From Rhodospirillaceae bacterium (GTDB lineage Bacteria > Pseudomonadota > Alphaproteobacteria > CACIAM-22H2), in the NCBI GenBank assembly GCA_022843945.1, contig JALHMR010000030.1, forward strand, positions 1 through 58,173: a DNA stretch of 58,173 nucleotides. Direction: 5' to 3'. Positions 17,279 through 30,541 of the stretch are shown here, one piece after another. Under the pieces are notes generated by a model that saw nothing but the letters and a program-made list of their open reading frames with translations, was not told the DNA's origin and searched no databases. The position numbers and the translations under genes were made by a program. Position 1 is the stretch's first letter; each line of letters opens with the position of its first letter.

Positions 17279-17457
17279 AACCATTCCTCATTGCGCTGGC
17301 GGCTCTTGGCATGTCCGCCTGTGCCAACGATCCGGTCGAGCGCATGGCCTATGACAGCCTGCGGCGCCACGAAGAGCGGCGCCCCAATCCGGGCTACGAG
17401 CCCAAGTCGCTGCCGAGCTACGACGAATACCGGCGGCAGCGCATCGAGCGCATCTAG
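17275..17457 (+). CDS. Small predicted lipoprotein (60 aa)
   Basis: A 60-residue protein starting at a GTG that overlaps the lipA stop (GTGA), so it is probably translated by coupling. Residues 1-15 form a short signal peptide ending GMSA before Cys16, a plausible lipobox. The mature part is charged ([18 protein letters not shown], then [14 protein letters not shown]). It would be a tiny envelope lipoprotein of unknown role. I recognise no family. Confidence 0.6.
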
Positions 17458-17462
17458 ACGCG

Positions 17463-17930
17463 ATGCCCACGCATGCCGAAACCCGGGTCCTGCCTTACAC
17501 GCCCGAGCAGATGTTCGAGCTGGTGGCGCGCGTCGAGCGCTATCCGGAGTTCCTGCCCTGGTGCGTGGCTTCGCGCATCCGCAGCCGGGAAGGGGAGACG
17601 ATTGTCGCCGACCTGGTGATCGGCTTCAAGATGGTGCGCGAGCGCTTCACCTCGCGCGTCACCCTCGACCGGCCGCGGCGCATCGACGTCAGCTACCTCG
17701 AGGGACCGCTGCGCTACATGAACAACCACTGGGTGTTCAAGCCGCATCCGTCCGGCGGTACCGAGATCGACTTCTTCGTCGATTTCGAGTTCCACTCGAA
17801 GGTGCTGCAGGCGCTGATCGGCGCGCTCTTCCATGAGGCGCTGCGCCGTCTTGTCGCAGCCTTTGAAGCACGGGCCCGGCAGCTCTACGGCGATCCCGCT
17901 TCGGCCACGGGCTTGAAGGCGGCGCGCTAA
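17463..17930 (+). CDS. RatA/COQ10-family SRPBCC protein
   Basis: A 155-residue START-like protein beginning with the family pattern (LPYTPEQMFELVARVERYPE then FLPWCVASRI). The middle has GFKMVRERFTSRVTLDRP and the end FHSKVLQALIGALFHEALRR, a long C-terminal helix closing the hydrophobic pocket. Relatives are COQ10, which binds ubiquinone, and RatA, which was described as acting on ribosome assembly; in alphaproteobacteria beside lipA the quinone-binding role is more likely. It follows the small lipoprotein by five bases. Confidence 0.88.
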   Translation: MPTHAETRVLPYTPEQMFELVARVERYPEFLPWCVASRIRSREGETIVADLVIGFKMVRERFTSRVTLDRPRRIDVSYLEGPLRYMNNHWVFKPHPSGGTEIDFFVDFEFHSKVLQALIGALFHEALRRLVAAFEARARQLYGDPASATGLKAAR

Positions 17931-17951
17931 CGCGCGCTGCAGACAGCGCCG

Positions 17952-18482
17952 CTAACTCGCCGCCTGGTGCTCGTCCGGATTGTCGAAATCGAGCAGCATC
18001 GGTGCGCGCTCGATGATCGCCGCGAGGATCTCCTCCGCCACCTTGATATCGGCCGCGGTACGCTGGCCCAGCCGGCCTTCGAAGCGCGGCTCGTTTGCCT
18101 TCTCCTGCGCCCGGTGCAGGTTGCGCAGCTCGCGCAGGAAGAGGTCGCGCGAGCCCAGCGGCAGCGCATCGCGCTCCGACAGGATGCGCAGGAAGTGCAG
18201 GCTGGCGGTCAGCGTCGCCGAGAGGAGGAAGAGCGTGAGCTCGTCGAACTTCTCCTCGAGGTCGCGCTCCTTGCCGCTCTTCATGTTCTTGAGGCGGTGC
18301 TCGATGAGGATCGACAGCGTGTCGAAGTCGTCGCAGCGCTTCTTGAACTCCTGGTAGGCCGCGAACTTGTCCCGGCGCGCATCGGCCGAGGCCAGCCCGG
18401 CCGTCTGGATCACCGAGCTCGCACTTTGCTCGAGCGCGCCCAGCAGCTGCTCCACCTCGCCGCGAGAATACGTTCGCGCCAT
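17952..18482 (-). CDS. Uncharacterised helical protein (176 aa)
   Basis: A 176-residue soluble protein predicted to be almost all helix, rich in charged residues (KSGKERDLEEKFDELTLFLL, FLRELRNLHRAQEKANEP). There is no signal peptide, membrane span or motif I recognise. It lies convergent to the RatA/COQ10 gene, on its own, with 200 bases to the diiron gene on the other side. Regular GC-rich codon use argues for a real gene rather than a shadow. Confidence 0.65.
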   Translation of the reverse strand: MARTYSRGEVEQLLGALEQSASSVIQTAGLASADARRDKFAAYQEFKKRCDDFDTLSILIEHRLKNMKSGKERDLEEKFDELTLFLLSATLTASLHFLRILSERDALPLGSRDLFLRELRNLHRAQEKANEPRFEGRLGQRTAADIKVAEEILAAIIERAPMLLDFDNPDEHQAAS

Positions 18483-18614
18483 GGTCTACCGTGGCCGGCC
18501 GCTTCTGGCCGCGCCTTTAGAGATTCCAACAACTTAGAGTTTGAATCCTAGAGCGCCGCCCGGCCCGAGGCAACCGAAACTCAGGATTGACACAGCCCAG
18601 GGTGCGCTTTGGCC

Positions 18615-18643
18615 TTGCCCCACGGGCTGGTGGAGGGCATATT
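18615..18643 (+). promoter_or_regulatory. Candidate promoter of the diiron-protein gene
   Basis: TTGCCC (18615-18620), 17 bases, then CATATT (18638-18643). Each box matches four of six consensus bases. The palindrome at 18646-18661 begins just after the -10 box, so a bound repressor would cover the transcription start. Pattern match only. Confidence 0.4.
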
Positions 18644-18645
18644 TA

Positions 18646-18661
18646 CTGACCGATCGGTCAG
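18646..18661 (+). promoter_or_regulatory. Perfect 16-bp TetR-type operator palindrome
   Basis: CTGACCGATCGGTCAG is a perfect palindrome, of the ACCGATCGGT type bound by many TetR-family repressors. It lies 24 bases ahead of the diiron-protein start codon, next to a candidate -10 box. A TetR gene follows the diiron gene (19865-20473) and is the obvious candidate to bind here. Confidence 0.75.
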
Positions 18662-18685
18662 CGAAAAAGACCCTGGAGGACACGG

Positions 18686-19774
18686 ATGACGGCCCCGCAA
18701 AACGCCGAAACTCTCGCGGCCCAGACCCGCGTACCGTCATCGAATCCCACGTCCATGCCCGATGCGGCGACGATCCTGTACGACACCCGCGATCCGCCGC
18801 CGTTCAAGGAAGGCAACATCTTCCCGCTCGAGTGGCGAGTCGAGACTCCTAAAATGCTGGAGATCTACGACGGCGCGCGCGATCCGGGCTGGTCGCCGAA
18901 CAAGCTTCCCTGGGCGACGCTCGACCCCAAGGCCTTCACCGCCGATCAGCGCTACGCCATGGCCTACTGGTGGTCGCTGCTCTCGGTCTTCGATTCGTCG
19001 GGGCCCGCCGTTTTTGCCCGGGCCATGATCCACACCTACGAGGCGCACGAGGAAGATCCGGTGCGCAAGTGCTTCTTTTCGGTGACCCGCGACGAGGTCA
19101 ACCACGAGGAGGTCTGCCAGCGCGCCATCCAGATCCTCACACCCGGCGGGCCGCTGGGCTACGAGCCGTCGACGCCGCTGGGCAAGCTCGGCCGCAACAA
19201 CACGCTGTGGCTCTACCACAACGGCGGCCGCTACTGGGACGGCTACAAGAAGGCGGTCGGCCGCTACCCGCTGGCCATCCTCTTCACCTCGTTCCTGATG
19301 GGCGAGGTCTCGGCGGCGACGCTGTTCCACGGCATGTACCAGAAGACGACCATCCCGGTGTTCAAGGAGGCCTTCCGCTGCGTCGGCAAGGACGAGGCGC
19401 GGCACATGGGCATCTGCCTCGCCATCCTCGACCGTCTGCTGCCGCTGCTCACCGACGAGATGCGCGAGCAGATCACCCGGCAGCTGCGCGCCGGCTACGT
19501 CTTCCTCTCCGGCGTGCTCTACGAGCCGCCCGAGCAGTTCTGGGAGCTGCCCGACACCTGGCGGCCGGCCCACCGCATGCTGGAGGACGTGGCCCGCGAC
19601 GCGGGGCTGGGCATCCTCTCGCTCGACGAGCGGCGTGAGAACTGGCGCGCGGCCGTCCTGAAGATGAAGGGCCTGCTCGAGCCGCACGGCGTCGAGTTCC
19701 CGGCCATTCCCGAAGTCGGCATCGACGGCAAGACCGTCGCCTTCAATCCCGAAGACATGATCCCGGTTTTCTAA
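18686..19774 (+). CDS. Ferritin-like diiron-carboxylate protein
   Basis: A 362-residue protein with the six-ligand pattern of soluble diiron enzymes: Glu119 or Glu122 (HTYEAHEEDP), E137-x-x-H140 (RDEVNHEEV), Glu207 (LMGEVSAAT) and E237-x-x-H240 (KDEARHMGI). This is the layout of ribonucleotide-reductase-R2-like and desaturase-like four-helix bundles, which activate oxygen. Which reaction it carries out is not evident; it is not a typical R2, as the tyrosyl-radical context is not seen. It has a CTGGAGGA ribosome binding site and a TetR-type operator in front, suggesting induction by a small ligand. Confidence 0.75.
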   Translation: MTAPQNAETLAAQTRVPSSNPTSMPDAATILYDTRDPPPFKEGNIFPLEWRVETPKMLEIYDGARDPGWSPNKLPWATLDPKAFTADQRYAMAYWWSLLSVFDSSGPAVFARAMIHTYEAHEEDPVRKCFFSVTRDEVNHEEVCQRAIQILTPGGPLGYEPSTPLGKLGRNNTLWLYHNGGRYWDGYKKAVGRYPLAILFTSFLMGEVSAATLFHGMYQKTTIPVFKEAFRCVGKDEARHMGICLAILDRLLPLLTDEMREQITRQLRAGYVFLSGVLYEPPEQFWELPDTWRPAHRMLEDVARDAGLGILSLDERRENWRAAVLKMKGLLEPHGVEFPAIPEVGIDGKTVAFNPEDMIPVF

Positions 19775-19784
19775 ACAGTGACGA

Positions 19785-19860
19785 ACCTCACCCTGAGGCT
19801 CTCGAAGGGTGGCCATGCTTCGAGACGCCCCTTCGGGGCTCCTCAGCATGAGGTTTAGTT
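19785..19860. repeat. REP-like palindromic intergenic element
   Basis: The gap between the diiron gene and tetR is almost filled by an inverted repeat: AACCTCACCCTGAGG at the left and CCTCAGCATGAGGTTT at the right, with an inner GCCCCTTCGGGGC hairpin. Elements of this look (CCTCA, TGAGG, CTTCGAGACGC) are scattered in many alphaproteobacterial genomes as REP/BIME-type repeats. It may stop or stabilise the upstream mRNA. Confidence 0.7.
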
Positions 19861-19864
19861 TTTA

Positions 19865-20473
19865 GTGGCCCGGACGAGGGCCGACGACTACGGCGAGAAG
19901 CAGCAGCGCATCCGCGACTGCGCCGCGGAGCTGTTCGCGGCGCGCGGTTTCGAGGCGACCTCGGCCGCCGACATCGCGGGCGAGGGCGGCTTCTCCAAGG
20001 CGCTGATCTACCACTACTTCGAGTCCAAGGAGGAGATCCTCCAGGACCTGCTCGAGACGCATATGGATGCGCTGCTCGTCGCGGCGCAAGGCGCCTTGCA
20101 TGAAGGCGACGAGCCGCGCACCCGCCTGCGCGCCTTCGTGCGCGCCCATATGCGCCTCTACGCCACCTCGCGGACCAAGCATCTGCTGCTGATCAACGAG
20201 CTCGATGCCCTGCCGGCCAAAGGCAAATCGGCCATCGTCGCCAAGCAGCGCCGCCTGGTCGACATGGCCGCCGATCTCTTTGCCGAGCTGGCGCCGGCGC
20301 TGAAGCAGCAGGCCGCCTTGCGCTTCCCCACGGCGATGAGCTTCTACGGCATGATCAACTGGACCTGCATCTGGTACCGGCCAGACGGCACCCTGTCGCC
20401 CGATGCCTTCGCCGATCTCGCCTGCGACTTGTTCCTCGGTGGGTTGAACGGCACCTTTCCAAGACGCGCGTAA
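19865..20473 (+). CDS. TetR/AcrR-family transcriptional regulator
   Basis: A 202-residue regulator. The N-terminal HTH runs at about residues 12-58: IRDCAAELFAARGFEATSAA, DIAGEGGFSKALIYHYFESK, then EEILQDLLE, the standard TetR DNA-binding arrangement. The C-terminal two thirds form a helical ligand-binding and dimerisation domain with no assignable ligand. It starts at GTG 19865 behind TGAGG. It most likely controls the diiron gene upstream through the palindrome at 18646. Confidence 0.9.
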   Translation: MARTRADDYGEKQQRIRDCAAELFAARGFEATSAADIAGEGGFSKALIYHYFESKEEILQDLLETHMDALLVAAQGALHEGDEPRTRLRAFVRAHMRLYATSRTKHLLLINELDALPAKGKSAIVAKQRRLVDMAADLFAELAPALKQQAALRFPTAMSFYGMINWTCIWYRPDGTLSPDAFADLACDLFLGGLNGTFPRRA

Positions 20474-20625
20474 GGCACCGCGCGTTTCAACCTGCATCTT
20501 CACCTGTCAAAGAACGTCTCGCCTCAATAGATGGTAGACGGTCTGGATAGGTCAAGACACCGGCATCCAACAAATGCCTCAGCCTTTTCAGAGTTCTGGA
20601 TACAGCCGTCCGCACGGCCATACTT

Positions 20626-20648
20626 AAGACATATTGTCTTTATATGAT
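20626..20648 (+). promoter_or_regulatory. Candidate operator and -10 box before the terminase genes
   Basis: AAGACA-TAT-TGTCTT (20626-20640) is a perfect inverted repeat, followed by TATGAT (20643-20648), five of six matches to a -10 box, and then the AAAGGAG ribosome binding site of the terminase small subunit gene. It could be a prophage repressor site. No repressor gene is in the window. Confidence 0.4.
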
Positions 20649-20671
20649 CCGGACCGTCGAAAGGAGCGCCG

Positions 20672-21190
20672 ATGGCCCGTCCGTTGCCCGACCGCGACAA
20701 GCGGCAGAAGACCTTCTTGCGCACGTTGCTCTCCGGCCAGCCCGTGATCCGCGCCTGCGAGGCCTCGGGGTTGCGCTGGAGCACGGTCTATCAGTGGCGC
20801 AAGGACAACGTCGCGTTTCGGGCCGCGTGGGACGCGGCGGCGAAGCTGGGGATCGAGGCCATGGCGGCGCGCTTCGACGCGGCCCTGGTCGAGCGCGCCG
20901 TCGACGGCGTCGACGAGCCGGTGTTCAAGGGCGGCGAGCAGGTGGGCACGAGGCGGCGCTATTCCGACGCGCTGCTGATGTTCGGCATCCAGGACATGCG
21001 CGAGCGTCTGCGGCCGCCGCCGCGCCCCCCAGGGAGCGCCTTGGGGCCGCAAGACGGGAACCGCCGCATCACCGTGGTGGTGCGCGAGTTTGGTCCGCCG
21101 CCGGAGAAGGGGGCGCCGGAGAAGGTGGCGACGGCGGAGACGAAGCCGCCCGCTTTACCGGTAGGAGAGAAGGAGAGGGGAGATGAGTGA
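20672..21190 (+). CDS. Phage terminase small-subunit-like protein
   Basis: A 172-residue protein with an N-terminal helix-turn-helix (RQKTFLRTLLSGQPVIRACE, then ASGLRWSTVYQWRKDN) and a following helical part with FKGGEQVGTRRRYSDALLMF, the usual look of small-terminase-like proteins that sit before TerL in prophages. The role would be DNA recognition for packaging. The C-terminal 60 residues are low-complexity, Pro/Glu-rich. It overlaps the large-subunit gene by eight bases. No portal, capsid or tail genes are seen in the window. Confidence 0.7.
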   Translation: MARPLPDRDKRQKTFLRTLLSGQPVIRACEASGLRWSTVYQWRKDNVAFRAAWDAAAKLGIEAMAARFDAALVERAVDGVDEPVFKGGEQVGTRRRYSDALLMFGIQDMRERLRPPPRPPGSALGPQDGNRRITVVVREFGPPPEKGAPEKVATAETKPPALPVGEKERGDE

Positions 21191-22772
21191 GGTTCACGCG
21201 CACGAAGCACCCCCACCCCAACCCTCCCCCATCAAGGGGGAGGGGGAAGAAAAGAGTGGTGAGGTGCACTTCCTATCCCCTCCCCCCTTGTGGGGGAGGG
21301 CTAGGGAGGGGGGTGACGGCGCAGAGCCCTCAACCGAAATCGAGTTCGAACTCCCCTACCGCTGGCAGCCGCGGCCGCATCAGCTCGGGCTGTGGTCGTT
21401 CCTCGAGCAGGCGATCAAGAAGGATCCTCCCGGGACGCGCGCCGTCGCGGTCTGGCATCGCCGGGCCGGCAAGGATTCGGTGGCGGTGAACTTCGCCGCC
21501 TGTGCCGCGCACCGGCGCATCGGCAATTACTGGCACATGCTGCCCACCGCCAAGCAGGGGCGCAAGGTGATCTGGGAAGGCATCGACCGCGACGGCCGCC
21601 GCCTGATCGACCAGGCCTTTCCGCCGCATCTGCGCAGCGGCAAGTCGGAAGAGGACATGCTGATCCGCCTGGAGCACGGCTCGACCTGGCAGGTCGTCGG
21701 CTCCGACAATTTCGACTCCCTGGTCGGCGCCAATCCCGTGGGCGTGGTGTTCTCCGAATGGGCCCTGGCCGATCCGCGCGCCTGGGACTACATCCGGCCG
21801 ATCCTGGCCGAGAATGGCGGCTGGGCGCTGTTCATCTACACGGCGCGCGGCCGCAACCATGGGGCCAGCCTCTACGACATGGCGCGGCGCACCGAAGGCT
21901 GGTTCGCCGAGAAGCTGACGGTCGAGGACACCGGCATCATCGCGCCCGAGATCATCGCCGCCGAGCGCCGCTCCGGCATGAGCGAGGAGATGATCCGCCA
22001 GGAATACTACTGCTCGTTCGAGGCGGCCCTGGCCGGCTCCTATTACGGCACGCTGATCGAGACGGCCGAGCGGGAAGGGCGCATCGCGGCGGTGAAGCCC
22101 GACCGCACCCTGCCGGTGGTCACGGCCTGGGACCTGGGCATCGGCGACGCGACCTCGATCTGGTTCGTGCAGCAATCGGGGCGCGAGATCCGGCTGGTCG
22201 ACTACTACGAGGCCTCGGGCGTCGGCCTCGACCACTACGCCGAGGTGCTGCGCCGCAAGCGGGCCGAGCACGACTGGGTCTACGGCGAGGCGCTGCTGCC
22301 GCACGACGCGATGCAGTCGGAGCTGGGCACCGGCCGCACCCGGCTGGAGACCCTGCGCAGCCTGGGCCTCGGACGCACACGGGTGGTCAAGCGCCTGGGC
22401 GTCGACGACGGCATCAACGCGTGCCGGGTCATCCTGCCGCGCTGCTGGTTCGACGCGGACAAGACGGCGCGCGGGCTGGAGGCGCTGCGCCAGTACTCAC
22501 GGGCGTGGAGCGAGGAGCGCAAGCTGTTCGGCGAGCGCCCGGCGCATGACTGGAGCAGCCACGCCGCCGATGCTTTCCGCTACCTGGCGACGGGATTGCG
22601 CGAGCCGCAGGACGAGGCCTTCGAGGCGACGACGCGGCAGACGAGGGCCATCGAGGAGCGCGGGGCACCCGATCCGCATTACGGGCGGACGATGCGGGTG
22701 TTCGACGGACCGGAGATGGCCTGCGGCCGCGACGGCGAGTGGCGTGCGACCGAGGCGATCATGGAGGAGTGA
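21183..22772 (+). CDS. Phage terminase large subunit (DNA-packaging ATPase/nuclease)
   Basis: A 529-residue TerL. ATPase: Walker-A-like HRRAGKDSVAV (about residue 92), Walker-B-like VGVVFSEWALADP. RNase-H-type nuclease: TAWDLGIGDATSIW, LLPHDAMQSE and WSSHAADAFRYLATG give the acidic residues. All catalytic motifs look intact. Residues about 9-45 are not native: they are translated from an intergenic palindromic repeat (21208-21316), giving PPPQPSPIKGEGEE and PPPLWGRAREGG. Either the repeat was inserted in frame or translation really starts lower down; no start codon with a good site was found after it. Confidence 0.82.
   Translation: MSEVHAHEAPPPQPSPIKGEGEEKSGEVHFLSPPPLWGRAREGGDGAEPSTEIEFELPYRWQPRPHQLGLWSFLEQAIKKDPPGTRAVAVWHRRAGKDSVAVNFAACAAHRRIGNYWHMLPTAKQGRKVIWEGIDRDGRRLIDQAFPPHLRSGKSEEDMLIRLEHGSTWQVVGSDNFDSLVGANPVGVVFSEWALADPRAWDYIRPILAENGGWALFIYTARGRNHGASLYDMARRTEGWFAEKLTVEDTGIIAPEIIAAERRSGMSEEMIRQEYYCSFEAALAGSYYGTLIETAEREGRIAAVKPDRTLPVVTAWDLGIGDATSIWFVQQSGREIRLVDYYEASGVGLDHYAEVLRRKRAEHDWVYGEALLPHDAMQSELGTGRTRLETLRSLGLGRTRVVKRLGVDDGINACRVILPRCWFDADKTARGLEALRQYSRAWSEERKLFGERPAHDWSSHAADAFRYLATGLREPQDEAFEATTRQTRAIEERGAPDPHYGRTMRVFDGPEMACGRDGEWRATEAIMEE
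21208..21316. repeat. Palindromic repeat element, copy A (inside terlike coding sequence)
   Basis: Begins CACCCCCACCCCAACC, has CCTCCCCCATCAAGGGGGAGG, and ends with CCCCCCTTGTGGGGGAGG and GGGGGGTGAC. Copy B at 26627-26756 has the same ends in a true intergenic gap. The family is common in alphaproteobacterial genomes as a mobile or REP-like intergenic repeat. Confidence 0.8.
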
Positions 22773-22848
22773 GGTGAATAGAGAAAAAAGTTGTAGAATT
22801 GGGAAAAATCCACGCAACCTAATGTTGCGCGTGCTTAAAGTGACTCCG

Positions 22849-22870
22849 GAGTTATGGCTCTCGATAACTC
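22849..22870 (+). promoter_or_regulatory. Hairpin abutting the pentapeptide-protein start codon
   Basis: GAGTTAT (22849-22855), an eight-base loop, and ATAACTC (22864-22870) are perfectly complementary and end directly at the ATG at 22871. A second hairpin CGCAAC-CTAAT-GTTGCG lies at 22813-22829. No Shine-Dalgarno sequence is visible between them and the start. Confidence 0.4.
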
Positions 22871-23947
22871 ATGAAGCAGCTAATAAAAGACGAAGCGATT
22901 GAGGCCTGGAATACGTGGCGCGGTCGCTATAAACGACCGGAGAGATCGGCATTCGTAAAATCGAATAGCTCATGGCTTTTCCCAAATCCTGATCAAATAG
23001 CCGAAATCAAGAATGAGATTGTTTCCGGCAAGACGGAAGCGGATCAGATCTTGTTTGGTAACCTCACGCTGCTAGAAAATGGCGCGTTCGAGGTGCCGTG
23101 GCCGCGATTGCTACCTTTCCAGAGCAAGATCGAAGGCACTTCTTCATTGGAGTGCTTCCTGCTGCGTGTCCGGTGGTTGTACGCCATCGAGAATGACGAT
23201 GACTATACGGCGACTGTGACAAACATGCTCCGGTCACTAGATCCGGATGGGCGGGTATTCGAGTCATTCGCAAAATTATGGAATGAAAAGCTTGCCCGGT
23301 ATCAGCTGCCGCCATTCGGACCCCGCGATCTTCGAGGTATAAATCTCGCTGGAATGGATTTGGTTGGTGAGCCGTATGACGGCATTTGCCTTCGACACTT
23401 CGATCTTTCTTTTGCAGAGCTGTCGATGGCCGAATTGGATGGCGCGAACTTATATCGTGCAAAGCTGAGCGGCACTTCCGCAATCAATACGAATCTACGA
23501 TATGCGATCTTATCGGGCGTGGACTGCCATCGCTCAATGATGTCTTCGGCCGATTTTTCCGGCTCCGATTTGACTGGAGCCAGCTTCGTAAAGGCCATCT
23601 GTCATCGCGCTGTATTGGACGGAGCGCGGATCGATCGAACGGATATATCGGGAGCGAACTTCACAAAAATTGTTATGCGTGACGAATGCAAAAGCCGAAA
23701 AAGCAGCCTATCGGTGGGACAGCTTATGTTCGATTCCGATACTGAGTTGTCGTTTGCTGTTTCCCCTTCGTGCCTAGACTCGTTACCTAAGCAGCTTCTC
23801 GCGTCGAACCATTCAAAAGAAACGATAACGAGCGCGCTGATTTCTTCTGTTGCCCTTCGTCCTGGAATGTTCGGCATATCTGTTGACTTGAAATCGCTAG
23901 GCGAAGCTCTAATTCACCGGCTCTGGAAATCTAAAAAGCGTCAATGA
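22871..23947 (+). CDS. Pentapeptide-repeat protein of unknown function
   Basis: A 358-residue protein of much lower GC content than its neighbours, a sign of transfer. Residues 1-150 form a helical N-terminal region unlike anything I recognise. Residues about 155-270 are pentapeptide repeats of the A(D/N)Lxx kind (DLRGINLAGMDLVG, FAELSMAELDGANLYRAKLS, SADFSGSDLTGASF, DGARIDRTDISGANF), which fold as a right-handed square beta helix. The C-terminal 80 residues are a further unknown domain. It has no signal peptide. Pentapeptide proteins can mimic DNA or act as scaffolds; nothing here decides between these. Confidence 0.72.
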   Translation: MKQLIKDEAIEAWNTWRGRYKRPERSAFVKSNSSWLFPNPDQIAEIKNEIVSGKTEADQILFGNLTLLENGAFEVPWPRLLPFQSKIEGTSSLECFLLRVRWLYAIENDDDYTATVTNMLRSLDPDGRVFESFAKLWNEKLARYQLPPFGPRDLRGINLAGMDLVGEPYDGICLRHFDLSFAELSMAELDGANLYRAKLSGTSAINTNLRYAILSGVDCHRSMMSSADFSGSDLTGASFVKAICHRAVLDGARIDRTDISGANFTKIVMRDECKSRKSSLSVGQLMFDSDTELSFAVSPSCLDSLPKQLLASNHSKETITSALISSVALRPGMFGISVDLKSLGEALIHRLWKSKKRQ

Positions 23948-24106
23948 ACACAGAACTGGTCTCTGACCCCGATTAACCGGCTTACTCATGCGCCGGCTCC
24001 TTGGATTAGCGCATCCCAAAGAGACTCAACGACCCTCATTCTCGTTGTACGAGTTGTCGTGCAAACTATTCGCCTTTAAATTGTCGGCTTCGACGCTCCA
24101 CGGCGG

Positions 24107-24859
24107 ATGGAGATGGCCTTGTTCGAGACGGAGAAGAAGACCTTCTGGCGCAGGATTGAGGCCTGGGCTCGAAAGCGGTTTGGCCGAAAGCTCGTCTCTG
24201 CGGCTGTGGCAGGGGTGTGGGTCGGCAGCGCTATTGTCCCTTTCCTCGTGACGATGGCGGGCTACCTCTCCGGTGTAATTCAGCGGGATCGTTTTCTGGT
24301 CTCCCTGGAGGCTCAACCGCTGATGCAGATCGGTGAGACTGCGTTTATGTCCGCGTCATCAGAGATGCGCCTGACATTGACCAATGTCGGGACACGGTTC
24401 GTCACCGTTAAACAGATCGACGTATGGTTCTCACAGCCGATCCAACCGGGCGTGGATGCGGCATGCGACAAGAAGGGGCTGGATCAAGACATCAGATATC
24501 GTGAAAGTCCGCCGCTGCCGATTGGCGTGGAGTTCGGAAAGCAGGCAGTGACAGTCATCGAGCCGCGTCATGAGGACGCAGACAAAGTATTGGATCTCGA
24601 TAGCCCTCTTTATTTGAGCGATCATCCTCTTTCAAAGGAGAACGCCCAGCGCGAAATTCATTCGTTTGCATTCTGCCTTGAGTTTCGCGTGGAAGCCGCT
24701 GGCGGCGTCCCTCGCTTTTCTTCGATTATGTACAGGACATTTAAAGTGCCGCGAGGTCAGGAAGGCTTCATTGCGCCCGACCCTGCGGATAGGAACAAAG
24801 TGTACGACTTGCTGAACGGCTGGGACGCCTTAGGCGTCTATTGGGACTTGCGCTCTTAA
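24107..24859 (+). CDS. Single-span membrane protein with extracytoplasmic domain, unknown family
   Basis: A 250-residue protein: basic, aromatic N-terminus (ETEKKTFWRRIEAWARKRFG), one membrane span at about residues 29-55 (LVSAAVAGVWVGSAIVPFLV), then a probable beta-rich domain outside the inner membrane with two cysteines that might pair (DAACDKKG, FAFCLEF). There is an alternative ATG two codons downstream at 24113. Its codon use is less GC-rich than the core genes, like that of the pentapeptide gene 160 bases upstream. I do not recognise a family or function. Confidence 0.6.
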   Translation: MEMALFETEKKTFWRRIEAWARKRFGRKLVSAAVAGVWVGSAIVPFLVTMAGYLSGVIQRDRFLVSLEAQPLMQIGETAFMSASSEMRLTLTNVGTRFVTVKQIDVWFSQPIQPGVDAACDKKGLDQDIRYRESPPLPIGVEFGKQAVTVIEPRHEDADKVLDLDSPLYLSDHPLSKENAQREIHSFAFCLEFRVEAAGGVPRFSSIMYRTFKVPRGQEGFIAPDPADRNKVYDLLNGWDALGVYWDLRS

Positions 24860-24884
24860 TACGCCCCAGAACAGTAGCAGCCGA

Positions 24885-25262
24885 TCAGCGCGAACGGCGC
24901 GACAGGGCGCGTGTCACCGCATCGGGTTCGCTGGCGATCACCTTGAGCAGCACGCGCGCCGGCCCGGCGGGGTGGCGGTGCCCTTGCTCATAATTGCGAA
25001 TCGTCTCCACCGAGAACCCGTAGCGCGCGGCGAACTGCTGCTGGCTCAACCCCAGCCGGCGCCGGAGGGCGCGTACGTTCTCCCCCGTCGGCGCCGGAAC
25101 CACGCGGCGCGCGCGCCGCAGCTCGGCGGCCGAGAACAGCGGCGCGGTGTTCGCATCGGACGCGATCTGACGCCTGATCTCCGCATCGCTGGTGGCTTCG
25201 ACCCGGCGCCAGTCCACCTTGCCGAGGTCGAGATCAGCCCGGGTACGCTTGACGGTAGGCAT
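24885..25262 (-). CDS. Antitoxin with Xre-type HTH, partner of BrnT
   Basis: A 125-residue protein. The N-terminal part (VDWRRVEATSDAEIRRQIAS, then ANTAP) resembles BrnA-type antitoxin N-termini, and the C-terminal half is a Xre HTH (ALRRRLGLSQQQFAARYGFS followed by VETIRNYEQGHRHP). It should bind both the toxin and the shared promoter. I chose the ATG at 25262, which lies within the end of the toxin gene (29-base overlap) as expected for a toxin-first operon; the longer upstream frame is not convincing. Confidence 0.8.
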   Translation of the reverse strand: MPTVKRTRADLDLGKVDWRRVEATSDAEIRRQIASDANTAPLFSAAELRRARRVVPAPTGENVRALRRRLGLSQQQFAARYGFSVETIRNYEQGHRHPAGPARVLLKVIASEPDAVTRALSRRSR

Positions 25263-25509
25263 TGCGTTCCTTCCTGTCTGCGACACGCAGACTGATGATC
25301 CGGCGTACGCCCGGCCGGTCGGTATAGACGCAGACCAGAACATGACTGCTGACCGAGCCGATCGCCTTGATCCGGACCTCGCCATAGTTCCGTCGCCGGT
25401 CCGCGCTCTCCAGCGTCGGGCCGTCGAAGAGCGCCATGGCGATGTCGAAGGGAAGGCCGCGCGCCTGCGCATTGGCGGCGCTCTTGGCGTCGTCCCATTC
25501 GAAGAACAT
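25234..25509 (-). CDS. brnT: BrnT-family ribonuclease toxin
   Basis: A 91-residue protein matching the BrnT pattern: MFFEWDDAKSAANAQARGLP at the start, then FDGPTLE, NYGEVRIKAIG, VLVCVYTDRPGVRRIISLR and the ending RKERNAYRQA. BrnT is a type II toxin with a RelE-like ribonuclease fold. It precedes and overlaps its antitoxin gene. A TTG two codons upstream is an alternative start. The predicted promoter leaves almost no leader before the ATG. Confidence 0.85.
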   Translation of the reverse strand: MFFEWDDAKSAANAQARGLPFDIAMALFDGPTLESADRRRNYGEVRIKAIGSVSSHVLVCVYTDRPGVRRIISLRVADRKERNAYRQAYPG

Positions 25510-25514
25510 GCTCA

Positions 25515-25543
25515 AATGTAGTACGTTGACTGATATCCGTCAA
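25515..25543 (-). promoter_or_regulatory. Toxin-antitoxin promoter with overlapping palindrome
   Basis: On the minus strand TTGACG (25543-25538), 17 bases and TACATT (25520-25515) make a candidate promoter. An 18-base near-palindrome (TTGAC, inner GATATC, GTCAA; plus-strand 25526-25543, one mismatched pair) covers the -35 box and most of the spacer, where an antitoxin dimer would block RNA polymerase. Confidence 0.5.
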
Positions 25544-25568
25544 TGACGGACCAGACCCCTCACCCTAA

Positions 25569-25591
25569 CCCTCTCCCCGGAGGGGAGAGGG
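25569..25591. repeat. Palindromic intergenic element (short form)
   Basis: CCCTCTCCCC (25569-25578), GGA, GGGGAGAGGG (25582-25591) is a perfect ten-pair hairpin preceded by CCCCTCACCCTAA. It is a relative of the two longer repeats at 21208 and 26627 and belongs to a type common in alphaproteobacteria. It lies between the toxin promoter and the NicO gene end. Confidence 0.65.
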
Positions 25592-25623
25592 GACCAGAAT
25601 GGGGATGCGCTCCTGCGAGCCGC

Positions 25624-26622
25624 CTACCACGCCCCCGCGAACAGCAGCACCCCGATCAGGGTGATGACCACGCCGCCGGCGTAGTCGAAGACCGGCGCCA
25701 GGGGCCCGCGTTCGCCCTCGGGGCGCCCATTCTTTCCACGCTCAGTCCAGCGGGTCATGGCGCTGCGCGCCACGATGGCCAGCACGCCGAGGCCCGCCAT
25801 GGTCAGCGCCATGCCGGCGGCGATCGCCGCGACCAGCACGAAGCCGGCGAACAGGATGCCGTTGGCCAGGGCGTAGAGCATGACCAGGATGGCGCCGGTG
25901 CAGGGCACGATGCCGACGCCGATCGACAGCCAGCTCTGTGGCCGGTGTTCGTGTGAGTGCCCGTGCGGATCATGTGAATGGTCGTGCCCCGGAATGGCGC
26001 AGTGCTCGTGGGCGTGCCCGCCGCCGCGCGCCGTCTCGACGATCATGTAGACGCCGATGATGGCGATCAGCGCGTAGGAGGCGAGCTGGATCTGGCGGAT
26101 CTCCGACCCCGAGGTGCCCCAGACCGTGCGGAACAGCAGGTCCGCACCCAGGGCGATGATGATGGCCGAGATGACGTGGCCGACCGAGATCTGCAGGCCC
26201 ATCAGCAGGCCGCGGCCGATGCGCGCCTGGCGGGTCAGGAAATAGCCGACCACCACCGCCTTGCCGTGGCCCGGCCCGGCGGCGTGCACCACGCCGTAGA
26301 GGAAGGCGAGGCCGATACCGACCAGCAGCGCCATCGTTGTTTCGCCGTCGCGGATGGCGCGCATGCGCGTCGCGATTTCGCGCGTCGCCTCGCGCTGGAA
26401 GCGGGCGAGCTCGCGGTTGATCCGGGTGAAGAAGCCGGGTGCGGGTGCGGGTTCGGCCGGGGTGGCGGCCGGGGCGGCGGGAGCGGGGGCGCCGGTGAAA
26501 GGGTTGGCGGGCTGCGCCGGCGCCGGTGCGGCTGGGGCGCCGGTGAAGGGGTTCGTCTGCTGCGCGAATAGCGGTGTTGCTGTCAGCAGCAGGAGCAGCA
26601 GTAGGGCCGTCAGAGCTTTCAC
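25624..26622 (-). CDS. NicO/RcnA-type nickel/cobalt transporter
   Basis: About 332 residues: signal peptide (ALTALLLLLLLTATPLFAQ), a Pro/Ala-rich segment with NPFTGAPA repeated, then a membrane domain of six or more spans. FLYGVVHAAGPGHGKAVVVG carries the HxxxxxHG metal motif, LQISVGHVISA is the second motif, and a His-rich loop (AHEHCAIPGHDHSHDPHGHS) follows. It is likely a metal exporter or importer for nickel, cobalt or a similar ion. I prefer the GTG at 26622; an in-frame ATG at 26640 lies in the repeat element. It forms a unit with the DUF1007 gene upstream. Confidence 0.82.
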   Translation of the reverse strand: MKALTALLLLLLLTATPLFAQQTNPFTGAPAAPAPAQPANPFTGAPAPAAPAATPAEPAPAPGFFTRINRELARFQREATREIATRMRAIRDGETTMALLVGIGLAFLYGVVHAAGPGHGKAVVVGYFLTRQARIGRGLLMGLQISVGHVISAIIIALGADLLFRTVWGTSGSEIRQIQLASYALIAIIGVYMIVETARGGGHAHEHCAIPGHDHSHDPHGHSHEHRPQSWLSIGVGIVPCTGAILVMLYALANGILFAGFVLVAAIAAGMALTMAGLGVLAIVARSAMTRWTERGKNGRPEGERGPLAPVFDYAGGVVITLIGVLLFAGAW

Positions 26623-26626
26623 GGCG

Positions 26627-26756
26627 CACCCCCACCCCAACCCTCCCCCATCGAGGGGGAGGGGGAAGAAAGCGAGGGGGAGGGGAAAGAAAGAAGGGGC
26701 GACGTCCTTTTCATGTCCCCTCCCCCCTTGTGGGGGAGGGATAGGGTGGGGGGTGA
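26627..26756. repeat. Palindromic repeat element, copy B
   Basis: Same ends as copy A at 21208-21316 (CACCCCAACCCTCCCCCAT and CCCCCCTTGTGGGGGAGGG), with a somewhat longer middle (GAGGGGGAGGGGAAAG). It fills the gap between the DUF1007 and NicO genes and reaches the NicO start. Confidence 0.8.
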
Positions 26757-26761
26757 TCCGT

Positions 26762-27370
26762 TCACGGCTTCGGGCAGCTCAGCGTGATGCTCTGGAACGG
26801 CGCGACGCCGAAGCTCTGTTGCGCCCCGCTGGCGTCGCGCACGCTGAAGGAGCAGCGGCCCGGCGTCATCCGGTCGAAGCGCACCGGGTCGTTGGTGTCG
26901 AGCCCCACTTCGACGAAGTAGGACTCATCGTAGATGCTGATCACCACCTCGGCGGCGCCGGGGTCGACGGGCTCGGCCAGCGGCAGGGTGAAGTCGTAGA
27001 CCAGCTGGCCGTTGCGCACCGCGCCCTGGAAACCCGTCACCGCGCCGAAGCCGGCCGGCTTGCCGCCGACCGTCATGTGGGCGAAGTAGCCGTACTCCTT
27101 GAGGTTGGCGAAGGCGCCTTTTTCGAGCTCGGCGTTCTCCTCCGGCTCGAAGCGGTTGTTCCGGTTGGCGTCGAAGCGCCGGATGATGGCCGTGCCGAAG
27201 AACTCGTCGAAGGTCCAGGTCAGGCGCAGCGCGGCCAGCTTATCGCCCTCGAAGACGAAGGTCGTGACGTTGTCCAGCCAGACGTGGGGATGGGCGGTCG
27301 CGGGACCCGAGCCGACGAGAAGGGCTGCACCGGCGAGGCCGAGGTATTTGAGGCCGGAGAAGAGGCTCAT
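26762..27370 (-). CDS. DUF1007 periplasmic protein with EF-hand-like loop
   Basis: A 202-residue exported protein: signal peptide (1-26, ending PATA), then HPHVWLDNVTTFVFEGDKL, the hallmark start of DUF1007. Residues about 65-80 carry FDANRNNRFEPEENAE, a loop with the D-x-N-x-N spacing and terminal Glu of calcium-binding EF hands. DUF1007 genes are usually found beside NicO/RcnA-type metal transporters, as here, and probably act as periplasmic partners. The function is not experimentally defined as far as I know. Confidence 0.85.
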   Translation of the reverse strand: MSLFSGLKYLGLAGAALLVGSGPATAHPHVWLDNVTTFVFEGDKLAALRLTWTFDEFFGTAIIRRFDANRNNRFEPEENAELEKGAFANLKEYGYFAHMTVGGKPAGFGAVTGFQGAVRNGQLVYDFTLPLAEPVDPGAAEVVISIYDESYFVEVGLDTNDPVRFDRMTPGRCSFSVRDASGAQQSFGVAPFQSITLSCPKP

Positions 27371-27396
27371 ACCTGATTTACGCCTTTCTCACGCCA

Positions 27397-28479
27397 CTAT
27401 TCCACCTGCGAAACGGGGCCACGCGGCAGGAAGGAGTCGATGACGACGCGGTCCGCCGCGGCACCCCGAGCTTGCGCCGCGGCGGCGCAGGCGTCAACGA
27501 AGGCGGGGCTGCCGGCGACCAGCACCGCGCTTGTCGAGAGGTCGGTGCTTTCCTTGGTCAGAAGGTCGGGGATGCGGCCACGCGCGAACGGGTTTTCTTG
27601 GGGGCCCGGACTGGCTATCGCCTCGCGGGTCAGCGTCGCCTGCCAGGTGAAGGTCGGGTGGCGCCGGGCGAGGCGGGCCAGCAGGTCGCAGGCGAAGAGC
27701 TCCTTGCGCTCGCGCACCGAGAAGAGGAGGCGGACCGGGTGGGCGAAGCCGTCCTCCAGCGCGCGGCTGACCGCGGAGAGGATCGGCGACAGTCCGGTGC
27801 TGCCGGCCAGCGCCAGGACCGGGCCGTCATGCCGCGGAAAAGCGAAATCGCCGTAGGGCCCGCGCAGGGTCAGCGTACCGCCGGGTTGCGCATGGTCGTG
27901 CAGCCAGTTGCTCGCCCGGCCCTTCGGGTGGCGGGTGATGTAGAAGCTCAGCTGGCCGTCGGGCAGCGTGCCGTCCGCTGCCGGCGCTTCGACGATGGAG
28001 TAGGGTCGCGGCGGCTCGATCCCGGGCAGCTCGAATTCCATGTTCATGCCGGCGCGGAAGCGGAAGCTCACGCCGGCCGGCAGGCCGACCACCAGGCGCA
28101 GCACGGTCGGCGTCACCGGATGGGCGGCGACGATCTCGGTCGTGAACTCGGCGGGAAGGATCGCCTCTTCGCCCGCTTCGCGGGCGTGCATCGGGTTGAC
28201 CATCGCCAGCCGGATCGTCGGGCTGCGCGGCTTGGACTGGCAGCACAGGCAGTAGCCCTGCTCCTTCTCCTCGTCGGTGATGGCGAAGCTCATCGCCCAG
28301 CCGTGGTCGACCATGCCTTCCAGCACCTTGGCCTTGCAGGTGCCGCAGGCGCCGCCGCGGCAGTTATGCGGCATGTGGATGCCGGCGGCCAAAGCCGCGT
28401 CGAGCAGCGGCGTGTCCTCCGGGCAGACATAGGTCTCGCCCGTGTTGGTCACCGTCACGTTGCTGGGGTCTTTGGTCAT
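27397..28479 (-). CDS. 2Fe-2S ferredoxin-type NAD(P)H reductase
   Basis: A 360-residue reductase: N-terminal plant-type ferredoxin domain (cluster cysteines in HNCRGGACGTCKAKVLEG and YCLCCQSKP), then an FAD-binding barrel (RPYSIVEAPA, YGDFAFP) and an NAD-binding domain (LALAGSTGLSPILS, VRERKELFACD, VAGSPAFVDAC). The order matches CDP-6-deoxy-glucoseen reductase and the reductase parts of oxygenases. It passes electrons from NAD(P)H to a partner that is not encoded nearby. I chose the ATG at 28479, since the longer upstream frame runs into the next gene. Confidence 0.87.
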   Translation of the reverse strand: MTKDPSNVTVTNTGETYVCPEDTPLLDAALAAGIHMPHNCRGGACGTCKAKVLEGMVDHGWAMSFAITDEEKEQGYCLCCQSKPRSPTIRLAMVNPMHAREAGEEAILPAEFTTEIVAAHPVTPTVLRLVVGLPAGVSFRFRAGMNMEFELPGIEPPRPYSIVEAPAADGTLPDGQLSFYITRHPKGRASNWLHDHAQPGGTLTLRGPYGDFAFPRHDGPVLALAGSTGLSPILSAVSRALEDGFAHPVRLLFSVRERKELFACDLLARLARRHPTFTWQATLTREAIASPGPQENPFARGRIPDLLTKESTDLSTSAVLVAGSPAFVDACAAAAQARGAAADRVVIDSFLPRGPVSQVE

Positions 28480-28499
28480 GGCTGGGGCATGAGCGGATT

Positions 28500-29390
28500 C
28501 TAGGAGTGGCGCCGGTGCAGCGCCAGGATGGTGGCGGCGATGCCGCCGGTGACGCAGGCCACGCCCAGGATGTCGGTCCAGCTCGGGACCTCGCCGAGCA
28601 GCGGGATGGCCAGGATGGTGACCAGGCCGGGGACGGCGGCGGTCAGCATCGTTGTGGAGGCAGCACCAAAAGCCACCACCACCCGCATATAGGCGAACAT
28701 GGAAACGATCGTCGCCAGAAGCCCCTGCAGCACCGCCTGGGTGATCAGCTCGCCGAGCGGGGCGAGGTGCAGCTTGGTATCGACGAAGAGCAGCCAGACC
28801 GGGATGTAGAGACAGAAGGCCAGCGGGAAGACCACCGAGGCGGCCTGCAGCGGCTTCACCTTCCAGCGCTGGGCCAGTATCGAGTAGATCGCCCAGCAGC
28901 ACGACGAGGCCGCGAACAACACGTCGCCGCGCCACATGCCGGGGGCGGCATGGGCCATGGTGTCGAGGGCGATCATCACCACGCCGACCACGATGAGGCC
29001 GAGACCGACCAGGCGGATGCGGTTAAAGCGCTCGCCCAGCACCAGCATGGCGAGGATCGAGGTCTGCAGCGGCAGCGAGCCGGTCATCAGCACCGCGGCG
29101 TGCGACACGGGCGCCAGCGCGAAGGCGTTGTAGGCGAAGCCGCCGAAGCCGATGCCGGCGAGCAGCGCCATGATCAGCCCCTGCCAGAGCTGGAGACCGC
29201 CCAAGCCCAGGCGAACCAGGAACGGCGCCATGACGACCCCGGCGATACCGACCCGCAGGGCCAGCAGGTCGGCCGGCTGGAACGTGGAGCGCGCGCCGAG
29301 ACGGGTCAGGAGAATAAAGCCGGTCCAGATGACCAGGATGGCGGCGGCGGCGCCGAGCCCGATCGCCAGCTCCCGTTTTTGCGGGGTCAT
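28500..29390 (-). CDS. EamA/DMT-family transporter
   Basis: A 296-residue integral membrane protein with about ten spans in two five-span halves, as in drug/metabolite exporters. Typical stretches are VIWTGFILLTRLG, FGGFAYNAFALAPVSHAAVL, PLQTSILAMLVLGERFNRIR and, near the C-terminus, LLGEVPSWTDILGVACVTGG. The ATG at 29390 has AGAAGGCGG in front. The substrate is unknown. It precedes the reductase gene by 20 bases on the same strand. Confidence 0.85.
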   Translation of the reverse strand: MTPQKRELAIGLGAAAAILVIWTGFILLTRLGARSTFQPADLLALRVGIAGVVMAPFLVRLGLGGLQLWQGLIMALLAGIGFGGFAYNAFALAPVSHAAVLMTGSLPLQTSILAMLVLGERFNRIRLVGLGLIVVGVVMIALDTMAHAAPGMWRGDVLFAASSCCWAIYSILAQRWKVKPLQAASVVFPLAFCLYIPVWLLFVDTKLHLAPLGELITQAVLQGLLATIVSMFAYMRVVVAFGAASTTMLTAAVPGLVTILAIPLLGEVPSWTDILGVACVTGGIAATILALHRRHS

Positions 29391-29484
29391 CGCGCCGCCT
29401 TCTGATCCGTCATGCCCGCGCCCCATTCTTCGCGCCGTCGGCGGCCGCGGCGGCCGGTGACCCGGCGCAGGGTGGGCATCCAGA

Positions 29485-29523
29485 CTCTTCTCAAGAAGAC
29501 TGGACCCCCGCTTGCGCGGGGGT
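29485..29523. repeat. Palindromic intergenic element (CCCCCGC hairpin)
   Basis: ACCCCCGC (29504-29511), TTGC, GCGGGGGT (29516-29523) is a perfect eight-pair hairpin, flanked on the left by CTTCTCAAGAAG. The pattern TGGACCCCCGC...GCGGGGGTGAC is a common alphaproteobacterial intergenic repeat. It lies between the dehydratase end and the EamA gene, where it may end transcription. Confidence 0.6.
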
Positions 29524-29551
29524 GACGCTCATTTCTTGTTTTCACGGCAGG

Positions 29552-30541
29552 CTAAGCTTTCAGCGCGGCGATGAACACGTCGGGATCGACATTGCCGCCG
29601 GAGCAGACGACGGCGACGGTCCGGCCCTTGATCGGGAACTTGCCCGAGAGCACGGCGGCTAAAGACACCGCACCGCCGGGCTCGACCACCAGCTTGAGGT
29701 CGTTGAAGGCGGTGGCCATGGCCGCTCGCGCCTCGTCGTCGCTGACCGCGAAGCCGCCAGCCAGCGTCTTGCGGTTGATCGAGAAGGTGAGCTCCCCCGG
29801 CTCGGGCGCCAACAGCGCATCGCAGATCGAGCGCGCCGCCGGGTCGTTGCTCTCGCGCCTGCCGCTTTTCAGACTGCGCATGGTGTCGTCGAAGCCTTGA
29901 GGCTCCACGGCGTAGACCGGCACGTTGGGTAGCTTGCCCTTGAGGGCCGTCGAGGTGCCGGCGATCAGCCCGCCGCCGCCGCAATTGACCAGCACGGCGT
30001 CGAGGCTCGCCTTCGCGGCGGCCGCCTGCTCGACGATTTCCAGCCCGACCGTGCCCTGGCCGGCGATGATGTAGGGGTCCTCATAGGGTGGAACAAGAAC
30101 GGCGCCGCGCTCGGCGCAGACCTTCTGTCCTATTGCCTCGCGGTTCTCGGTGTAGCGGTCGAAATGGATGACCTCGGCGCCGTAGGACCTGGTGTTGCGC
30201 ACCTTGATCGCCGGCGCGTCGGCCGGCATCAGGATGACCGCGGGAATCCCCAGGATCTGGGCCGCCGCCGCGACACCCTGCGCATGGTTGCCCGAGGAAT
30301 AGGTGACGACGCCGGCCTTCTTCTGCTGGTCGTCGAGGCGGCTGATGCGGTTGTAGGCGCCGCGGAACTTGAACGAGCCGGTGCGCTGCATCGGCTCGGC
30401 CTTGATCAGCAGGCGCCCGCCCAGTCGCGCGTTGAGCACCGGCGATTCGAGCAGCGGCGTGCGCACGGCCAGGCCGGCGATCTGGCGCGCGGCGTCTTCG
30501 ATGTCCGCCAGGGTGGGCTCAAAGCGCGCGGAGGAAGTCAT
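29552..30541 (-). CDS. Threonine/serine dehydratase family PLP enzyme
   Basis: A 329-residue fold-type II PLP enzyme without an ACT or regulatory domain, hence of the catabolic kind. PLP Lys58 lies in GSFKFRGA, SSGNHAQGVA binds the substrate carboxylate, and CGGGGLIAG holds the PLP phosphate. It deaminates threonine or serine to 2-oxoacids; serine racemase and hydroxyaspartate dehydratase share this architecture and cannot be excluded. Its first 23 bases overlap the end of the hydrolase gene upstream. Confidence 0.88.
   Translation of the reverse strand: MTSSARFEPTLADIEDAARQIAGLAVRTPLLESPVLNARLGGRLLIKAEPMQRTGSFKFRGAYNRISRLDDQQKKAGVVTYSSGNHAQGVAAAAQILGIPAVILMPADAPAIKVRNTRSYGAEVIHFDRYTENREAIGQKVCAERGAVLVPPYEDPYIIAGQGTVGLEIVEQAAAAKASLDAVLVNCGGGGLIAGTSTALKGKLPNVPVYAVEPQGFDDTMRSLKSGRRESNDPAARSICDALLAPEPGELTFSINRKTLAGGFAVSDDEARAAMATAFNDLKLVVEPGGAVSLAAVLSGKFPIKGRTVAVVCSGGNVDPDVFIAALKA

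Follow-up and report, generated by a model that had tools for sequence, protein, structure and literature searches.

The phenylacetate pathway is a central aerobic route for phenylalanine and many aromatics. Within it, PaaG is the isomerase of the epoxide made by PaaABCE. The BoxB/BoxA benzoyl-coenzyme A (benzoyl-CoA) epoxidase pairs a diiron enzyme with a reductase and has an aryl-CoA as its substrate. Excerpts of a 2026 survey treat the oxygen-inserting step of the phenylacetate pathway as PaaABCE, with PaaA and PaaC as genomic markers, and mention configurations without the epoxidase module (PMC13186573). In the part of the Burkholderia cenocepacia study cited here, PaaR is a TetR repressor of the phenylacetate genes, with an inverted repeat in the core promoter and the PaaR box ACCGACCGGTCGGT (PMC2770484). 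A response of PaaR regulators to phenylacetyl-CoA has been reported (PMC4424350, and a title cited in PMC6651687). Here, we describe a diiron-TetR locus in a 58,173-nucleotide stretch of a Rhodospirillaceae bacterium genome (the whole stretch is called the window) and compare it with its relatives in other genomes. In our reading, the locus and a reductase gene further downstream encode an R2-like oxygenase of two components that is controlled by a PaaR-like repressor and acts on an arylacetyl-CoA, probably phenylacetyl-CoA; we hold this reading to be evenly balanced between right and wrong. Searches of open-licence papers returned no description of such a diiron oxygenase that we recognised. 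The parts of the proposed unit are as follows.

18640-18645, plus strand: candidate -10 element TATTTA, abutting the operator (sequence reading)
18646-18661, no strand: putative TetR operator CTGACCGATCGGTCAG (sequence reading, genome motif search and similar sites before orthologues)
18686-19774, plus strand: R2-like diiron-carboxylate protein of 362 residues, putative aryl-CoA oxygenase component (open reading frame, ORF, with ATG start; AlphaFold model; conserved residues)
19865-20473, plus strand: PaaR-like TetR-family regulator of 202 residues with a GTG start (TetR_N and TetR_C_24 domains)
27397-28479, minus strand: 2Fe-2S/flavin adenine dinucleotide (FAD)/nicotinamide adenine dinucleotide (NAD) oxidoreductase of 360 residues, putative electron donor of the diiron protein (Fer2, FAD_binding_6 and NAD_binding_1, all over cut-offs)

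The operator CTGACCGATCGGTCAG is a perfect palindrome over all 16 bases, and the ATG of the diiron gene (18686) lies 24 bases further on, with the TetR gene downstream on the same strand. This arrangement, first noted in a first-pass annotation, was confirmed at 18646-18661, 18686-19774 and 19865-20473. The same annotation placed a candidate -10 box just before the palindrome; TATTTA does abut it, but a scan with the sigma-70 consensus reported no promoter, so that the box is no more than a candidate. AT-rich -10-like stretches occupy the same position in the related genomes G001, G003 and G006 (by eye). The operator sequence is the sole match in the window at up to three mismatches (shuffled mean 0.40), and the exact 16-mer occurs once only in the 5.38-Mb genome, before the diiron gene. 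Sites with up to three mismatches number 31 genome-wide versus 18 for a reversed control, and the second-best of them, with two mismatches, lies within an ORF. No wider operator regulon was found in this genome among the 15 of the 31 near-sites that were fetched (the window's own, 13 in ORFs and one intergenic).

The diiron family falls into two supported clades, A (19 rows, including the window) and B (ten rows, including genome G223). G003 and G089 each hold one copy of either clade, the clade B copy of G089 being split over two contigs. G370 stands outside the tree, the ORF caller having missed its diiron gene, and was placed in clade A by its approximately 70% identity to the window's protein. 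A close diiron gene (more than 80% identical) is present in five of the 23 genomes of the window's family: the window's own, G001, G002, G003 and G006. The TetR gene is the next gene after it in the last four, with spacers of 7-21 bp. In G003 the operator is on one contig and the TetR gene on another, with an overlap of 140 bp between the contig ends at 95% identity; by inference the two are treated as one locus, and strain variants or two copies may be present instead. In the more distant G089 a MaoC-like gene stands between the diiron and TetR genes, with the TetR gene about 1.2 kb downstream.

Operator-like sites precede the clade A diiron gene in all five of these close genomes and in G089, each with p = 0.002 against shuffles of the sequence upstream of it, the lowest value that 500 shuffles allow. 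The site in G001 is the window's 16-mer extended to 18; the others are CTGACCAATCGGTCAG in G002, TTGACCGTCCGGTCGGTCAA in G003, TTGACTGATCGGTCAG in G006 and TTGACCGTCCGGTCAG in G089. Because operators of the same kind precede clade A diiron genes in relatives, the palindrome is more than a product of chance. No such operator was found upstream of the second, clade B copy in G003. Over a wider set of 32 upstream regions (either motif, 500 shuffles each), 11 hold an operator-like site: ten of the 15 with a TetR gene versus one of the 17 without. This tally is indicative only, because its threshold (a shuffle p of up to 0.014 for either motif) was chosen after the results had been seen and the rows are related. 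The set takes in two of the 18 Azospirillum loci and omits L049 and L055 (kin of G370) and loci that duplicate genomes already included; the TetR genes of G003 and G134 were taken from other stretches, and that of Variovorax VAI-C is at a distance of about 15 kb. G223, G134 and three Variovorax clusters have a TetR gene and no operator at the diiron gene, and in all five the TetR gene is upstream of the diiron gene. The expectation that pair and palindrome would recur in related genomes was borne out: the diiron-TetR pair is kept and the palindrome recurs before close orthologues; it is absent before many distant ones. As a separate observation, Burkholderia sp. S171 (L052) carries three near-identical intergenic ACCGTCCGGACGG(A/G/T) boxes, at 2835, 3597 and 9916, which precede a TetR gene, a MaoC-headed operon and the diiron gene and form a compact local regulon.

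The diiron protein has no Pfam or NCBIfam match over cut-off. Its AlphaFold model, built with 26 sequences, has a mean predicted local distance difference test score (pLDDT) of 82.1 and a predicted template-modelling score (pTM) of 0.81, and the predicted fold is of the helical R2 type, like those of R2, R2lox and VlmB. Foldseek returned nine matches to the predicted model at E ≤ 0.001, all of them R2lox (best E 2.4e-4), and VIA-align gave Z scores of about 19 for 6d9f, VlmB and R2lox alike and of 17-18.5 for R2 subunits. Residues D103, E137, H140, E207, E237 and H240, the putative metal ligands by R2 spacing, are invariant in 26 of 26 sequences, as is E119. The family alignment, used as a profile against the PDB, was uninformative, the sole match below 0.001 being a designed helix bundle, and no relative turned up in the viral contigs scanned. 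Two assignments were rejected. The best Pfam match, to AurF-type N-oxygenases (PF11583), reaches 20.8 bits (cut-off 29.6; E 2e-4), and a relationship to PaaA or PaaC finds no match to PF05138 or TIGR02156 at E ≤ 1.

The regulator scores 55.0 bits against TetR_N and 83.9 bits against TetR_C_24. The same two domains occur in TetR proteins encoded within the Paracoccus denitrificans and Novosphingobium pentaromativorans paa clusters and in one encoded beside paaE in Vitreoscilla filiformis, to which the window's protein is 37, 41 and 34% identical, respectively. Its closest solved structure by sequence is 3ccy (E 8e-49). A tree of these regulators, with few supported forks and a bootstrap that had not settled, does not separate diiron-linked from paa-linked proteins. 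Matches to the PaaR box ACCGACCGGTCGGT have one mismatch in G003 and Vitreoscilla, two in the window, G089 and Burkholderia sp. S171, three in G001 and G002 and four in G006. The paaN-paaG intergenic region of Paracoccus carries ATTGACCGGCCGGTCGGT, and in Novosphingobium AGACCGTCCGGTCA lies between paaA and pcaF. It is plausible that the ligand belongs to the pathway of the diiron protein, as the first-pass annotation had proposed, and since the regulator is PaaR-like and PaaR is reported to be phenylacetyl-CoA-responsive, the proposal can be sharpened to a ligand of the phenylacetyl-CoA type.

A third part of the unit lies further away. That annotation had pictured a self-contained sense-and-oxidise unit. 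The self-containment is not supported: the diiron enzyme probably depends on the reductase encoded at 27397-28479, a link absent from the annotation, and on an aryl-CoA ligase whose gene lies elsewhere. In the reductase the ferredoxin domain comes first, in a BenC/MmoC-like layout. It was located with the G223 reductase as a query in 13 diiron genomes (window match 27445-28452, minus strand), and it is 57-64% identical to the diiron-linked reductases of G003, G006 and G001, the last being a fragment at a contig edge, 1.5 kb from the TetR gene. The reductase and TetR genes are convergent, lying 3 bp apart in G003 and overlapping by 4 bp in G006, and because they abut in these two genomes the reductase is, on gene order, part of the diiron-TetR unit. 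Threonine-dehydratase-like and HAD-like genes flank the reductase gene in G002, G003 and the window (by eye). The GC-frame ORF caller overlooked three of these reductases (window, G001 and G006), which were placed by tblastn or direct translation.

The surroundings of the family link it to phenylacetate genes. We used 16 reference proteins, in addition to the diiron protein, to score 36 rows (stretches of 3.2 to 21 kb that surround members of the family, some from strains closely related to one another). Near the diiron gene, a reductase was found in 20 rows, a PaaR-like TetR in 14, a PaaK-like ligase in 11 and PaaX in six; among 20 control stretches of 19 kb from three genomes, none matched any reference gene. 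The rows include four of the 18 Azospirillum loci, omit L049, L055 and loci duplicating included genomes, and count the split clade B copy of G089 as two; several reference proteins came from scored rows (the window, G223 and Burkholderia S171). Many diiron relatives adjoin genes for PaaK, PaaI, PaaX, PaaZ or PaaG. Matches over NCBIfam cut-offs are PaaX beside the diiron gene of Azospirillum doebereinerae, PaaK and PaaI beside that of G103, PaaN in a metagenome-assembled genome titled Cyanobacteria, and PaaZ, PaaG and 3-oxoadipyl-CoA thiolase in G223. In G223 (L140) the genes for PaaG, the thiolase, PaaK (738 bits), TetR, the diiron protein and the reductase follow one another on one strand; a PaaX homologue (40% identical to the Azospirillum one) adjoins them, followed by PaaZ and two beta-oxidation genes. 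This genome is 92% complete and has no PaaA match at E ≤ 0.001 genome-wide, and to judge by its gene content it is the clearest case of a diiron protein and reductase standing where PaaABCE would be needed.

The version of the first-pass annotation, in which the inducer is the substrate or product of the diiron protein, would also cover a small-molecule TetR switch unrelated to phenylacetate. In favour of such a switch, the palindrome and the diiron-TetR pair are real, and neither protein matches over cut-off an NCBIfam model with a named pathway. However, the gene neighbourhoods in many lineages indicate CoA metabolism of the phenylacetate type and the window's regulator has TetR_C_24 like the paa-linked ones, and we regard an unrelated switch as very improbable.

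A PaaX-type gene was also observed in all 18 Azospirillum diiron loci (L059-L064, L066-L075, L078 and L079). Excerpts of the 2026 survey give no PaaX or PaaR in the Azospirillum contexts around PaaK; the two findings do not clash, because the PaaK and diiron places are on different contigs in the Azospirillum genome G073.

The distribution of the diiron gene was compared with those of PaaK and PaaA. In the 14 diiron genomes PaaK is over cut-off in ten and PaaA in one, and G103, G134, G223 and G333 have the diiron gene and no PaaA match at E ≤ 0.001. A population of 385 genomes of Alphaproteobacteria contains 52 with PaaK over cut-off. The diiron gene is present in seven of the 14 of these that lack PaaA (the window's genome, G003, G101, G103, G223, G370 and G386) and in one of the 38 that have it (G073). 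The association of the diiron gene with the absence of PaaA has a Fisher p of 1.8e-4, or 0.0046 when counted by family (five of nine versus one of 21), neither value being tree-aware. The window's genome (96.7% complete) has PaaK (710.5 bits; cut-off 646.3), PaaG (408 bits; cut-off 345) and PaaN (864 bits; cut-off 579), and on the same contig a PaaI-like thioesterase (by similarity) and a PaaY match below cut-off; no PaaA is over cut-off in this genome. The presence of PaaG leads one to expect some epoxidase. A gene for an FAD-dependent oxidoreductase (NF006002, 799 bits; L136 7463-9067) adjoins that for PaaK in this genome, and similar ORFs lie by PaaK in G002, G003, G006 and G101 (by eye).

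Several observations weigh against an arylacetyl-CoA oxygenase that stands in for PaaABCE. Half of the PaaK-bearing genomes without PaaA (seven of 14) have no diiron gene, and G001 (of the window's genus), G089, G134 and G333 carry the diiron gene without PaaK over cut-off. None of the scored set was found in nine of the 36 rows (the 5' fragment of the G089 clade B copy, G101, G333, Entotheonella, Marinobacterium, Chloroflexi, Centralia, Daviesbacteria and Nonomuraea). Azospirillum G073 holds both PaaA and the diiron gene, and a Vitreoscilla plasmid has PaaD and PaaE a few kilobases from it; because of this coexistence the diiron gene is no pure replacement. No PaaZ is over cut-off in the window's genome, nor in the PaaA-bearing G073. 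The PaaK-PaaI-PaaG cluster of the window's genome is on another contig, and neither such an operator nor a PaaR-type box was found there. The two-mismatch match to the 14-base PaaR box in the window is centred 2 bp off the palindrome centre, which implies that the half-sites are shared and the spacing is not. Two further points, an orphan protein and the division into clades, each bring a different explanation with them.

In the window's family, each of the five members with a diiron gene also encodes a PaaA-like orphan, which scores 83-91 bits against TIGR02156 (cut-off 280) and could perform the phenylacetyl-CoA step. The diiron protein would then have an accessory role in the same metabolism, such as that of an oxidase for detoxification or for side products. 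In the window's genome this PaaA/PaaC-like orphan (G000:C6:149719-150387; L096, L099) reaches 101 bits against PF05138, over the cut-off, near genes for a flavin reductase, a short-chain dehydrogenase/reductase (SDR) and a dioxygenase-like protein, and it is possibly another unusual aryl-CoA oxygenase. Its kin in all five genomes, the flavin reductase nearby and the diiron gene's occurrence alongside PaaA in G073 or PaaD/PaaE in Vitreoscilla would suit such a division of labour. However, the orphan adjoins the SDR and dioxygenase-like genes and not PaaK or PaaG (by eye), and four genomes (G103, G134, G223 and G333) carry the diiron gene with no PaaA match at E ≤ 0.001; an accessory role appears improbable to us.

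The presence of both clades in G003 and G089 hints at different substrates, and because the family splits in this way function may differ between the clades. On this alternative, clade A, including the window's protein, oxygenates a different aromatic bound to CoA (such as an arylacetyl-CoA that is hydroxylated or contains nitrogen), which would also be the ligand of the PaaR-like TetR, and only clade B acts on phenylacetyl-CoA. Besides the tree itself, this explanation draws on the clade A clusters of Variovorax and Burkholderia S171, which have only distant PaaK-like ligases (34% identity; 261 bits in S171 against a cut-off of 646), on the position of the annotated clusters among those of Variovorax, near an indolepyruvate oxidoreductase gene, and on the operator-less PaaK cluster of the window's genome. 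Against it, the clade A diiron genes of G103, G386, KW1 and G370 directly follow PaaK, which is over cut-off in G103, G370 and G386, and the PaaI beside the G103 gene is over cut-off as well. We consider a different aromatic substrate for clade A rather unlikely, while giving it more weight than the orphan or the unrelated switch.

Under the arylacetyl-CoA oxygenase reading, the PaaR-like TetR protein (19865-20473) would occupy 18646-18661 over the start of the promoter and repress the diiron-TetR operon. The protein would be released by an arylacetyl-CoA thioester, for which the likeliest candidate is phenylacetyl-CoA produced by the PaaK that this genome encodes. The 2Fe-2S/FAD reductase (27397-28479) would then reduce the R2-like diiron protein, which would insert one oxygen from O2 into the aryl-CoA; the product would probably be the 1,2-epoxide, which PaaG, encoded in the same genome, could isomerise. 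The diiron unit would in this way take the place of PaaABCE. A broader proposal is that the family represents a second, unrelated bacterial phenylacetyl-CoA epoxidase, made up of a single-subunit R2-like diiron protein and a BenC/MmoC-type reductase under PaaR- or PaaX-type control and replacing PaaABCE where PaaK and PaaG are kept. We put this forward tentatively, as somewhat more doubtful than the evenly balanced aryl-CoA oxygenase reading; both are held at these levels because of the coexistence with PaaA, PaaD and PaaE, the two clades, the PaaK cluster without an operator and the PaaA-like orphan. The diiron unit may have gone unnoticed as a substitute at a central step of aromatic breakdown. 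If so, it would account for genomes that retain the CoA ligase and the epoxide isomerase without the PaaA/PaaC marker, correct pathway predictions and offer enzymology a compact two-protein aryl-CoA oxygenase.

Two intervals separate the parts of the unit in the window.

19775-19864, no strand: 90-bp spacer between the diiron and TetR genes, with a dispersed repeat and a terminator-like stem at 19841-19853 (repeat search and stem prediction)
20474-27396, no strand: 6.9 kb between the TetR and reductase genes, including terminase-like and pentapeptide-repeat genes (comparison with G003, G006 and G001; pentapeptide match; terminase small-subunit match below cut-off)

The repeat in the spacer has 14 further matches in the genome, and the spacer may uncouple expression of the TetR gene from that of the diiron gene. 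The longer interval contains terminase-like genes at 20672-22772 (by eye and by the match below cut-off), a BrnT-like toxin ORF at 25234-25509 (by eye) and a transporter-like gene. On the other side of the operator, a divergent gene for a 176-residue protein (17952-18482) has no Pfam or NCBIfam match; its kin stand beside the diiron gene in G002, G003 and, by eye, G006. No Rfam family was found within 17400-29600.

Among known proteins, VlmB, R2lox and ribonucleotide reductase R2 share the predicted fold of the diiron protein (Z 17-20; root-mean-square deviation 3.0-3.8 over approximately 240-270 residues) and its ExxH pairs, and differ in sequence (9-14% identity in the alignments) and in genomic setting. 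AurF (PF11583) is similar through a weak profile match, and differs in that the genomic context of the diiron protein is CoA catabolism. BoxB/BoxA resembles the proposed unit as a diiron protein and reductase acting on an aryl-CoA, whereas the window's diiron protein has no PF05138 match; the window's genome has its own 475-residue BoxB-like protein at C6 (30 bits against PF05138; BoxB by eye). Like PaaR of B. cenocepacia, the window's regulator is a TetR protein with an inverted repeat at a candidate promoter, and the PaaR box resembles the sites before the diiron gene, off-centre in the window, but the window's TetR accompanies a single diiron gene rather than paaABCDE; the proteins to which it was compared are the three paa-cluster TetR proteins (34-41% identity). 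Compared with PaaABCE, one diiron subunit is seen instead of PaaA, PaaB and PaaC, and the ferredoxin domain is C-terminal in PaaE and N-terminal in the window's reductase. What the two would have in common is a diiron oxygenase with a 2Fe-2S/FAD reductase, acting between PaaK and PaaG.

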